Below the pieces are notes generated by a model. It was not told the DNA's origin and did not search any database. It saw nothing but the letters and a program-made list of their open reading frames with translations. Of a stretch of 64,000 nucleotides of DNA, positions 50,410 to 57,553 are shown piece by piece. Every line of letters starts with the position of its first letter. Within the stretch, counting starts at the first letter, position 1. Source of the DNA: Chloroflexota bacterium (GTDB taxonomy: Bacteria > Chloroflexota > Anaerolineae > Anaerolineales > Villigracilaceae). The position numbers were made by a program, and so were the translations under genes. The stretch is taken from NCBI GenBank assembly GCA_021795965.1, contig JAJYOU010000007.1, positions 1-64,000 on the forward strand, read 5' to 3'.

Positions 50410-51183
50410 TTACTCAGATGTTTCTTTGAGTTTGACGTAAAACAAATTTGATCCGTCTGTTTCCTGGGTCTTCATTTCAAAAAAGTCTTTAAGGTTGCCA
50501 ACAAGCCTCGAGAGCTGCCTCTGCCCGTAGGTTCGAGGGTCAAAGCCAGGATCAAGCTGGTAAAGAGCATTCCCCATGTGGTCCAGGCGAGCCCAGCCAT
50601 CTTCTTGAACTGCCATCTCAAAAGCTTTTTCAAGAATAGGCATCGGGTCAGCTTCTTCTTTTTCTTCCTTCTTTTTCCCGTTACCGGCAACTGGTTTGCG
50701 AACCCTGGGTTTGGCTGGTTTTGATTCAGTCACGAGATTTTCAGTGTATACGAAAACATCGCAAGCATTCACAAAAGGTTTGGGTGTTTTCTTTTCACCG
50801 ATTCCCATCACAAAAACACCTGATTCTCGGATTCGGGTAGCCAGACGTGTATAGTCACTATCACTCGAAACGAGGCAAAAGCCGTCCACCACCCGTGAAT
50901 GGAGGATATCCATCGCATCGATGATCATTGCGCTGTCGGTGGCGTTCTTGCCAATGGTGTAACGAAATTGTTGAATGGGTTGGATGGCATGAAAATTCAG
51001 GACATCTTTCCAGGAATTCATATTTGGAGTCGTCCAATCACCGTAGATCCGGCGAACCGTTACCATACCATATTTGCCGGACTCAACCAGCATTTGGGGT
51101 AATAGGACGGATTGGGCATTGTCTCCATCGATTAACATTGCGATTTTTCGTCGCGAAAGGGAGGAAATTTGTTCTTCAGCCAT
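50410..51183 (-). CDS. NYN-domain RNase-like protein with LOTUS/OST-HTH domain
   Basis: A 257-residue protein. Residues 10-150 form a NYN (LabA/DUF88) PIN-like nuclease domain with the acidic residues MLIDGDN, TDSAMIIDAMDI and SSDSDYTRLA expected to hold metal. A basic Lys-rich linker (165-185) follows, then residues 188-255 form an OST-HTH/LOTUS RNA-binding domain (LEKAFEMAVQEDGWARLDHMG and FDPRTYGQRQLSRLV). The pairing suggests an RNA-cleaving or RNA-binding protein; the target is unknown. TATAAT lies 6 nt before the ATG. The orphan GEMM RNA is transcribed away from it, starting 140 bp upstream. Confidence 0.85.
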   Translation of the reverse strand: MAEEQISSLSRRKIAMLIDGDNAQSVLLPQMLVESGKYGMVTVRRIYGDWTTPNMNSWKDVLNFHAIQPIQQFRYTIGKNATDSAMIIDAMDILHSRVVDGFCLVSSDSDYTRLATRIRESGVFVMGIGEKKTPKPFVNACDVFVYTENLVTESKPAKPRVRKPVAGNGKKKEEKEEADPMPILEKAFEMAVQEDGWARLDHMGNALYQLDPGFDPRTYGQRQLSRLVGNLKDFFEMKTQETDGSNLFYVKLKETSE

Positions 51184-51195: not shown

Positions 51196-51291
51196 CCTGC
51201 AAAAGGTGGTAGAAGGTTTATACCAACACGATGAAAATCCCCAAATTACCTTAATGAAACCATAAAATTATCTTAAAAACGTCTCCGCTCG

Positions 51292-51320
51292 TTGAAAAAA
51301 TCAATTTTTTGTGCAATAAT
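51292..51320 (+). promoter_or_regulatory. Promoter of the orphan triple GEMM RNA
   Basis: TTGAAA (51292-51297) and AATAAT (51315-51320) with a 17-bp spacer; TGC at 51312-51314 gives an extended -10. Transcription start is expected near 51327, about ten bases before the first aptamer. Confidence 0.65.
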
Positions 51321-51334
51321 ATGGACGCACTTCG

Positions 51335-51421
51335 ACAAAAAGCAAAACCAGTGAAAACTGGTGACGCAAAGTCACGGGTCTAAAATGTTCACATCGAACA
51401 TTATGACAGCCAGACTTCCGA
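51335..51421 (+). promoter_or_regulatory. GEMM-I aptamer 1
   Basis: Core elements match the class consensus: GCAAAACC, stem CCAGT/ACTGG closed by a GAAA tetraloop (51353-51356), GACGCAAAG (51363-51371), CACGGGTCTAAA, a 7-bp stem AATGTTC/GAACATT, and ATGACAGCC. The base before the conserved CAAA is G, which in this class goes with c-di-GMP rather than cGAMP binding. All key positions appear intact. Confidence 0.88.
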
Positions 51422-51423
51422 GA

Positions 51424-51507
51424 AAGGCAAAACCAGCAAAAGCTGATGACACAATGCCAGAGGATCTAAAGTTGCTGAACTTGCAACCAGGATAGCCCGG
51501 CAAACCG
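51424..51507 (+). promoter_or_regulatory. GEMM-I aptamer 2, degenerate
   Basis: Shares GGCAAAACC, GGATCTAAAG, GGATAGCCCGG and the paired stems. It differs at conserved points: the tetraloop is AAAA (51438-51441) rather than a GNRA loop, and the core reads ACACAATGCC (51449-51458) where the consensus is ACGCAAAGCC. It is probably weak or inactive as a ligand binder. Confidence 0.72.
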
Positions 51508-51508
51508 A

Positions 51509-51599
51509 AACGCAATATCATTGAAAAATGATAACGCAAAGTTATGGGTCTAAAATCAGGATTATTTTAATTACCTGGTCATGATCGCCAGACTTCTGA
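51509..51599 (+). promoter_or_regulatory. GEMM-I aptamer 3
   Basis: Stem ATCATT/AATGAT closed by GAAA (51523-51526), AACGCAAAG (51533-51541), TATGGGTCTAAAATCAGG with partner CCTG across a 13-nt loop, and ATGATCGCC near the 3' end. The CAAA segment reads CAAT and the purine-binding GACAGCC reads GATCGCC, but the tetraloop and core are intact. Confidence 0.8.
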
Positions 51600-51615
51600 A
51601 AAGTGCAAATAAAAA

Positions 51616-51660
51616 TTCCCGTCGTTGAAATCCCACGAAATCAACGACGGGAAAATTTTT
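51616..51660. terminator. Terminator shared by the GEMM RNA and the molybdenum hydroxylase operon
   Basis: TTCCCGTCGTTGA (51616-51628) pairs perfectly with TCAACGACGGGAA (51641-51653) over a 12-nt loop. TTTTT follows on the plus strand (51656-51660), and a T-run also follows on the minus strand. It is positioned to end both converging transcripts. Confidence 0.85.
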
Positions 51661-51707: not shown

Positions 51708-53915
51708 TTAGATTCTCCCCAATCCTTTTAATATTCTTTCAGGTGTTAGGGGGAATTCATCGAACCAAATTCCAATCGCATCGTGAAGCGCCGAAATAAT
51801 TACCGGAGCCATCGGTAAGTAGGGAAGTTCGCCCAAACCTTTTGCACCCCATGGACCGAGCTCATCCGGTAGCTCCAAAATAATCGACTCAACTTTTTCG
51901 GGAATATCCCGGATGGTTGGGATCAGGTATGTGCTAAGTTGGTCAGTTAAAACATATCCATTTTTTGTGATGAAGTTTTCCATCATCACGTACCCCTGTG
52001 CCTGCACCACACCCCCTTCAATTTGACCTATCACCTGGGAGGGGTTAATCGCTTTGCCAACATCATGTGTGGAAATGATTCTAATAATTCTAAGTTGCCC
52101 GGTTTCGATATCCAGCTCAATTTCTGCTCCTTGGGCGGTGTATGCATACGAGAAATTGGGCAGGCATTTTCCAGTTTCTTTGTTAAAGGGGGTTGTTTCA
52201 GGAGCATAGTAGGTATATTCAACAATTGCAGGTCTTTCTTCAGAGTCCCATCTCGCTTTGGACAACTCTGAAGCTTTTTTAACCGCGTTTCCACTCATCA
52301 CTGTCAGTCGTGAAGCTGAGGCAGACCCCGCATTGCCCATATTCAATGTGTCCATGGTGATCATTTCCACTTTTTCAATGGGCACGCCGATTACTTCCGC
52401 GGCTATTTGAGCAAGGATGGTGTGATTTCCCTGCCCAACGTCGGCTGCCGCACTGTAAACCACCACCTTTTCGATTTTTGAATTCCCGTGTATTTCAATT
52501 CGAGCCCAACTATTTTCCTTGTAACCAAAGCTGAAACCGATATTCTTAAAACCTGCGGCGAACCCGATTCCTTTTGCTAGGTGAGATTGGTTCTTGGATT
52601 GGGAGGAATTTTTCCGAGCCCATTGGCCGTTCACTTCGTGCCAGCCTGCTTTGATTGCGGTTGCTTCTATTACCTCGCGGATTGTGACCGGACCTTGTGG
52701 GGGAGTTTGCACATCCAGGGTATCTTCGGGTTTGAGTGCGTTGCGCATTCTCAGTTCAACCGGATCGATTCGGAGTTTTTCCGCCAGTTTATTCATTTGC
52801 ATTTCAGCCATAAAAATAGCCTGAGGCGCTCCAAAACCTCGAAATGCCGCGCTGGGGATATTATTGGTATAAACCCCAATCACGTCAGACTTGACATTCG
52901 GAATGGCATAAGGACCAGTTTGGGTGATGGTGGCATTTCCGAGCACCTTGTTGGTGGTGTACATATAAGCACCGCCATCAGCGATGAAGGTTGTCTCGGC
53001 AGCGATTATTTTGCCATCCCTGCTGGCGCCCCATTTGGCTCGAATCACCATTGGGTGACGCTTCCCATGCCCAATCATGGATTCCTTGCGTGACCAGACA
53101 ATTTTTACTGGTTGATTAAGTTTCCAGGCAGCCAGTGCCAGTACAATTTGGACGGATAGATCTTCCCTACCGCCAAAGGCGCCGCCAATTGCAGGATACT
53201 GCACCCGTATTTTTTCCAGGGGCAGGTTGAGGGAATGAGCTAACTGGTTTTGGTCCGCATGCGTCCATTGACCGGCTGCCTTGATCGTCAGCAAACCATC
53301 TTCGTCAATATAAGCGATTCCCGCTTCGGGTTGCAAATAGGCATGTTCCTGTGCAGGAACTTTGTAGATTCCTTCAACGATCACATCTGAAGCAGCGAAA
53401 CCCATTTCAACATTCCCTTTTCGGATTTTGTCGTGAACGCAAATATTCGAGGTTCCAATCTCTGGATGGATCGAGTAAGCCTCGGGGAGGATTGCGATTT
53501 CCGGATCTGTCACGACCGGCAAATCCAAATACTCAACCTTGATTAAACGCATCGCTTTCTCAGCGATTTCTTCTGTTTCAGCAATGACAATCGCCACCTG
53601 GTCTCCAACAAATCGAACAATATCTGCGCCAGGTTTTGAGGAACCCGGTCCGCAAAGGACTGGCTGATCCTTAATCTGTAATCCGTACTCGTTGACTGGA
53701 ACGTCCCTGGCCGTAAACACTGCCTTCACACCCGGGAATTTTTCTGCTGCAGAAGTATCAATACTTAAAATTTTTGCATGAGGTTTTCCAGAGAATAAAA
53801 TTTTCATCTGGAGCATTCCCGGCATGACCAGGTCTCCGGCATATTGGGTTTGTCCAGTGACTCTTTCACGTGCATCAATTTTTTCGATCGATTGACCGAT
53901 CACATTTAAGGTCAT
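51708..53915 (-). CDS. Molybdenum hydroxylase large subunit (xanthine dehydrogenase family)
   Basis: A 735-residue molybdopterin-binding subunit. Cofactor-contacting motifs are present: GGAFGGREDLS near residue 235, AAFRGFGAPQA near residue 345 and the catalytic-base region GAKGLGELPYLP near residue 700. The AFRGFG form, with its Arg, is that of xanthine dehydrogenases and purine or nicotinate hydroxylases; CO dehydrogenases carry an AYRGAG form with a Cys nearby. The FAD and iron-sulfur domains come from the gene at 54383. Its 3' end faces the orphan GEMM RNA. Physiological substrate unknown. Confidence 0.88.
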   Translation of the reverse strand: MTLNVIGQSIEKIDARERVTGQTQYAGDLVMPGMLQMKILFSGKPHAKILSIDTSAAEKFPGVKAVFTARDVPVNEYGLQIKDQPVLCGPGSSKPGADIVRFVGDQVAIVIAETEEIAEKAMRLIKVEYLDLPVVTDPEIAILPEAYSIHPEIGTSNICVHDKIRKGNVEMGFAASDVIVEGIYKVPAQEHAYLQPEAGIAYIDEDGLLTIKAAGQWTHADQNQLAHSLNLPLEKIRVQYPAIGGAFGGREDLSVQIVLALAAWKLNQPVKIVWSRKESMIGHGKRHPMVIRAKWGASRDGKIIAAETTFIADGGAYMYTTNKVLGNATITQTGPYAIPNVKSDVIGVYTNNIPSAAFRGFGAPQAIFMAEMQMNKLAEKLRIDPVELRMRNALKPEDTLDVQTPPQGPVTIREVIEATAIKAGWHEVNGQWARKNSSQSKNQSHLAKGIGFAAGFKNIGFSFGYKENSWARIEIHGNSKIEKVVVYSAAADVGQGNHTILAQIAAEVIGVPIEKVEMITMDTLNMGNAGSASASRLTVMSGNAVKKASELSKARWDSEERPAIVEYTYYAPETTPFNKETGKCLPNFSYAYTAQGAEIELDIETGQLRIIRIISTHDVGKAINPSQVIGQIEGGVVQAQGYVMMENFITKNGYVLTDQLSTYLIPTIRDIPEKVESIILELPDELGPWGAKGLGELPYLPMAPVIISALHDAIGIWFDEFPLTPERILKGLGRI

Positions 53916-56599: not shown

Positions 56600-57553
<954 letters not shown>

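Follow-up and report, generated by a model that had tools for sequence, protein, structure and literature searches.

Bdellovibrio bacteriovorus has a free-standing, non-coding c-di-GMP-I RNA, merRNA, which lacks a downstream ORF and is proposed to act as a c-di-GMP reservoir; it is 445 nt long and is described as containing one c-di-GMP riboswitch, and no conservation was found outside Bdellovibrio (PMC3627812). Three c-di-GMP-I aptamers in tandem are known from Bc3-5 of Bacillus thuringiensis, a cis-acting triple riboswitch in the 5' UTR of cspABCDE (PMC4759541), and 12 c-di-GMP-I triplets have been counted (PMC9481103). The c-AMP-GMP-binding GEMM-Ib riboswitches of Geobacter carry A at position 20 (PMC6456294, PMC8835794), the base that sets c-di-GMP versus c-AMP-GMP selectivity and at which an A20G change swaps it (PMC6456294; position 20 is also the selectivity base in PMC9481103). 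In addition, an S-box antisense RNA faces the convergent ubiGmccBA operon of Clostridium acetobutylicum, as cited in PMC3627812.

The array analyzed here lies in the window, a stretch of 64,000 nt of Chloroflexota DNA. Compared by description, it is free-standing like merRNA and shares with it the c-di-GMP-I aptamer and the lack of an ORF, but it consists of three modules fused under one helix and is found order-wide, whereas merRNA has a single aptamer. The first-pass annotation had stated that no c-di-GMP example of a free-standing form was known, which overlooked merRNA (PMC3627812). Three c-di-GMP-I aptamers in tandem are a feature in common with Bc3-5; in contrast to the three complete riboswitches of Bc3-5, the array has one closing helix, one terminator, and no controlled gene. 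The literature searched, mostly open-access main texts, yielded neither a fused, free-standing, order-wide triple nor a report of c-di-GMP riboswitches from Anaerolineae. Both the fusion of the triple and its order-wide conservation appear to be new, the 12 triplets of PMC9481103 being known by count only, and judged by the same literature, a single closing helix bearing three pockets would represent a new aptamer architecture.

Fused architecture of the three aptamer units

The three GEMM-I aptamers proposed in the first-pass annotation were recovered on the plus strand with RF01051 scores of 73.3 bits (unit 1, 51331-51422), 49.1 bits (unit 2, 51416-51508), and 57.2 bits (unit 3, 51501-51600), all above the gathering cut-off of 35 bits. 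By cmscan alone only units 1 and 3 were matched, the two units on which the annotation had staked its claim, and unit 2 was obtained from a whole-genome RF01051 search; no other RF01051 matches were found in the window genome, a 1.94-Mb MAG that is 62% complete. The annotation's picture of three ordinary consecutive aptamers had to be revised, since the units are fused. Consecutive Rfam matches in the triple overlap by ~7 nt, and because the nucleotides that end one unit also begin the following one, no separate P1 is possible. A P1 helix for each aptamer was accordingly not found; a single helix, with GCACUU (51327-51332) as 5' strand and AAGUGC (51601-51606) as 3' strand, closes all three units. 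The whole fused triple (51324-51608, plus strand) scores 250.9 bits with R1, a covariance model of the complete array with 276 positions. The closing helix, the aptamer units, and the terminator were all present in the predicted, unconstrained minimum free energy fold of the window RNA (-99 kcal/mol, z = -5.96).

Covariation supports this architecture. Across 69 arrays, double changes occur at all six pairs of the closing helix, as in UUGCUC/GAGCAA compared with GCACUU/AAGUGC. When these arrays were aligned to the model, 93.3% of pair cells were formed and 56 of 71 pairs had changed on both sides (0 of 500 shuffles), while alignment A2, comprising 25 arrays aligned with MAFFT and not fitted to structure, gave 92.3% paired cells and 52 of 72 pairs changed on both sides (0 of 500 shuffles) with the closing helix and no individual P1. 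The linkers are short and nearly constant: the one joining units 1 and 2 measures 10 nt in 58 of the 69 arrays, and the one joining units 2 and 3 measures 8-9 nt in 63. Each unit, starting at columns 19, 127, and 253 of the 69-copy alignment, retains the equivalents of C46 and A47 of Vc2 in at least 68 of 69 copies. When units were compared with their nearest counterparts in another genus, the index agreed in 51 of 90 cases, as compared to one third expected, which indicates that the units keep some identity of their own.

One relative, G068, carries a single-aptamer copy (L109:4467-4567) in which the closing helix is retained as its P1, as might be expected if units were gained or lost inside one P1. 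Together with the degenerate middle unit in G071 and G065 (L064, L065), this copy shows that three units are not strictly needed. In unit 2, AAAA often replaces the GAAA loop in P2 (alignments A2 and A3), and one P3 pair (columns 168-229 of A3) is broken, being unpaired in 47 of 69 copies; tertiary docking may therefore differ in this unit.

Distribution, transcription signals, and neighbours

Searching the family with R1 gave one full-length match each in 66 of 152 genomes, distributed over 12 of 26 genera and scoring 147-291 bits, and zero genomes with two full-length matches. The next score class, at 144 bits or below, consisted of spaced doublets and singles. A single copy per genome across relatives argues for a conserved RNA gene and not an oddity, and since 86 of the 152 genomes are without a full-length copy, the array is not essential. 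Full-length matches were also obtained in four other families of the order (f8, f9, f13, and f14; 400 order genomes searched), so that the synteny-free array which the annotation had suggested looking for in related Anaerolineae does exist. In a phylum sample of 400 searched at an E-value of 1e-35, none was detected outside the family; the strict filters used in these large searches can lose weak matches. The range thus covers at least parts of the order, with no sign of the array elsewhere in the phylum. The other GEMM-I elements of the family are mostly singles or spaced doublets located ahead of genes. In several genera, spaced doublets (L074, L075, L077, and others) precede small secreted proteins that resemble one another, apparently as ordinary cis control. 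Paired matches 165-170 nt apart in other genera were considered as triples lacking the middle unit, but nhmmer detected no middle unit and they were assigned to the spaced cis doublets.

Upstream of the array, a -35 element TTGAAA (51292-51297) and an extended -10 element TGC-AATAAT (51312-51320; AATAAT at 51315-51320) are separated by a spacing of 17 nt, as the first-pass annotation had described. The promoter scan was weak on its own, with four sites found against 3.1 expected. Nevertheless, nearly all copies, several from other families among them, have TTGAAA-17-AATAAT or a close variant at the same distance, 9-12 nt ahead of the array. The intrinsic terminator of the annotation was likewise confirmed at 51616-51660, with a 13-bp stem (51616-51653), a loop of 12 nt, and a T-run, and a strong terminator-like hairpin, defined as reaching at least the 95th percentile of random windows from the same loci, follows the array in 61 of 67 cases. 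The window terminator is symmetric, with an A-tract before and a T-tract after it, and could function on both strands; it probably also ends the minus-strand xdh operon. Both neighbours lie on the minus strand, as was noted at first reading: an NYN/LOTUS protein upstream (50410-51183) and xdh/MoCoBD downstream (51708-53915). All plus-strand ORFs between the array and the aldolase at 56603 are antisense to annotated genes, which agrees with the annotation's view that no credible plus-strand gene intervenes, and no missed coding gene follows the array. Within the array RNA, the longest closed ORFs equal those of shuffled sequence, and a missed coding gene or small ORF was rejected on this basis. 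A relic of a lost leader was excluded by the covariation and by the conservation of the promoter. With promoter, closing helix, and terminator conserved and the neighbour not, there is strong support for the proposed free-standing non-coding RNA equipped with a promoter and a terminator of its own; the comparison shows the array to be, in its signals, a separate, non-coding, and neighbour-independent transcription unit, presumably transcribed as one RNA.

A terminator placed directly 3' of the aptamers would also be expected of an ordinary cis attenuator, in which the ligand governs read-through into the next gene, and same-strand genes do follow the array in many relatives, namely ruvB (30 genomes), MBOAT (five), GH25 (in G002), an RR-HK pair (in G064), and others. 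However, the downstream gene differs by lineage, and in 16 genomes it lies on the opposite strand (xdh in eight, methyltransferase in two, purA, nitroreductase, and others), these genes having been called by a simple ORF picker with some loci read in reverse; the conserved same-strand downstream gene of a cis riboswitch was thus not found. The terminator arm was no more complementary to unit 3 than expected by chance (mean z 0.09; 2 of 67 below -2), so that neither antiterminator pairing nor an expression platform could be recognized by this measure, and the family's other GEMM-I elements precede genes in the usual way as separate units. With neighbours that are not conserved and often convergent, no antiterminator, and no ORF, attenuation in cis is unlikely for the family, while the same-strand ruvB in 30 genomes counts against the free-standing reading and leaves a cis role possible there. 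Where the array faces xdh, at 55-148 nt in the window and seven relatives, a riboswitch-controlled antisense RNA could in principle arise by read-through into the convergent gene, an arrangement similar to that of the S-box antisense RNA as described in the passage of PMC3627812 that cites it. Unlike that system, as far as this passage describes it, the array is separated from xdh by a strong terminator and the convergence is limited to one genus, the other genera examined having the array without an adjacent xdh, and we regard antisense control as very improbable. Individual lineages might use antisense action on xdh or control ruvB in cis; neither mechanism explains the whole family.

The locus in the genus and its upstream repeat

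In six relatives of the window (G065, G069, G070, G071, G072, and G073) the locus consists of NYN (minus strand), RR, HK, and the array (all plus strand), followed by the terminator and xdh (minus strand); an M24 peptidase often precedes NYN, as it also does in the window, and on short contigs the outer genes are missing. G068 has the same gene order with its single aptamer. In the window NYN, the array, and xdh are kept and the two-component (RR-HK) pair is absent, whereas in G064 the array is located upstream of the same pair. The array was also considered as part of an RR-HK operon, but true synteny was observed only in this genus and in G002, the array stands without RR-HK in the window and occupies other loci in other genera. 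A genome search anchored on NYN returned two array loci only, both already in the set of relatives.

Upstream of the arrays of this genus we identified a direct repeat, CTTACA-N5-CTTAAA, with a pitch of 11 bp, which is intact in most of them and which has a related repeat ahead of several RR genes in the neighbouring RR-HK operon. A looser form, TTA(A/C)(A/C)-N6-TTA(A/C/T)(A/C), occurs 16 times in 220 kb, and 11 of these sites immediately precede either an array or an RR gene. The window carries a decayed form of the box, CATAAAATTATCTTAAA (51261-51277, plus strand), with three mismatches relative to the form of the relatives. Direct repeats of 11-bp pitch are expected for regulators of the OmpR/PhoB family, and judging from these sites, an OmpR-type two-component system is the probable regulator of the array promoter in the genus. 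A related RR-HK pair is encoded elsewhere in the window genome (contig C8:19931-21040; L111, G000) and could drive the window array in trans; in the HK tree its kinase falls apart from the array-linked kinases of the genus. A TTACC-N6-TTATA repeat precedes the RR gene on C8, where no array adjoins the pair. The sensor loop of the array-linked histidine kinases is rich in Met and His (L062:4806-5948), a feature frequent in metal sensors. In genus g26 and several other genera (e.g., L222, L229, and L230), a different element, the conserved TTAGAACA-N-TGAGTGA, abuts the -35 box in place of the CTTACA repeat of the window's genus.

Proposed function and ligand

Nothing but the aptamer fold is conserved in the array, which suggests that its function lies in binding, and it probably acts by holding or sensing the signal itself. 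We consider it about an even chance (0.5) that the array is a free-standing RNA gene whose three-module domain functions by binding, as buffer or receptor, under OmpR-type promoter control in the genus. Against this reading count the reduced unit number in some relatives, the family genomes that lack a full-length copy, and the same-strand ruvB. The RNA of ~335 nt would consist of one compact domain, with three GEMM-I modules joined by linkers of 8-10 nt under the single shared closing helix, followed by the terminator. As a buffer or reservoir it would set the free level of the signal, and as a receptor the bound RNA would be read by some other factor. The precedent of merRNA (PMC3627812) counts for the former, and a cyclic-dinucleotide-binding RNA in a buffer role appears most likely. 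With the merRNA-like class, whose defining features also include massive expression, the array has in common the c-di-GMP-I aptamer, a transcript of its own as predicted from promoter and terminator, and the lack of an ORF. A buffer role needs an abundant RNA. The usual view is that second-messenger levels depend on synthesis and breakdown; if the reading is true, buffering of c-di-GMP by RNA would be a general and testable idea beyond a curiosity of Bdellovibrio.

The free-standing position of the array and its regulated-looking promoter would also suit a ligand-gated RNA acting in trans, in which binding would switch the array into a state able to pair with mRNAs or to capture a protein, with the riboswitch-controlled RNAs Rli55 and EutX of Firmicutes as models. 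The CCCCCC terminator loops of G069, G073, and G068 (L061, L063, and L109) could pair with ribosome binding sites, but such a C-rich loop is missing from most copies, including that of the window, the tail and terminator loop vary between genera, and no conserved unpaired seed is present outside the aptamer cores. Action in trans is therefore a possibility that we hold tentatively.

For the preferred binding role, the signal would be c-di-GMP and perhaps also c-AMP-GMP, as judged from position 20. Among 69 copies this position is A in 52 and G in 17 for unit 1, A in 55, G in 13, and C in one for unit 2, and G in 53, C in 11, and A in five for unit 3; the window units 1, 2, and 3 have A, G, and C, respectively. 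In the cis elements of genera g1 and g3, G is found in 25 of 37. The excess of A20 in the arrays over the cis elements gave Fisher p-values of 2e-5 for unit 1 and 1e-6 for unit 2, which serve as a guide only since the arrays are related. The prevalence of A in units 1 and 2 suggests mixed specificity, a lead and not a result, and the ligand may not be c-di-GMP alone. Most array copies thereby resemble GEMM-Ib riboswitches in units 1 and 2 (the window in unit 1 only), but differ from them in the mostly G-containing unit 3, in the lack of a Hypr GGDEF signature among the parsed enzymes, and in having no controlled gene. The A-A-G pattern invites the question whether two signals are sensed. A single-copy, order-wide RNA that holds or integrates two cyclic dinucleotides, through two A20 c-AMP-GMP modules and one G20 c-di-GMP module with no attached gene, is a speculative and rather improbable reading. 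All 25 parsed GGDEF domains, a minority of the domains found, carry Asp and not the Ser of the Hypr signature. GGDEF proteins number four in the window genome, at its 62% completeness, and 8-28 in its relatives.
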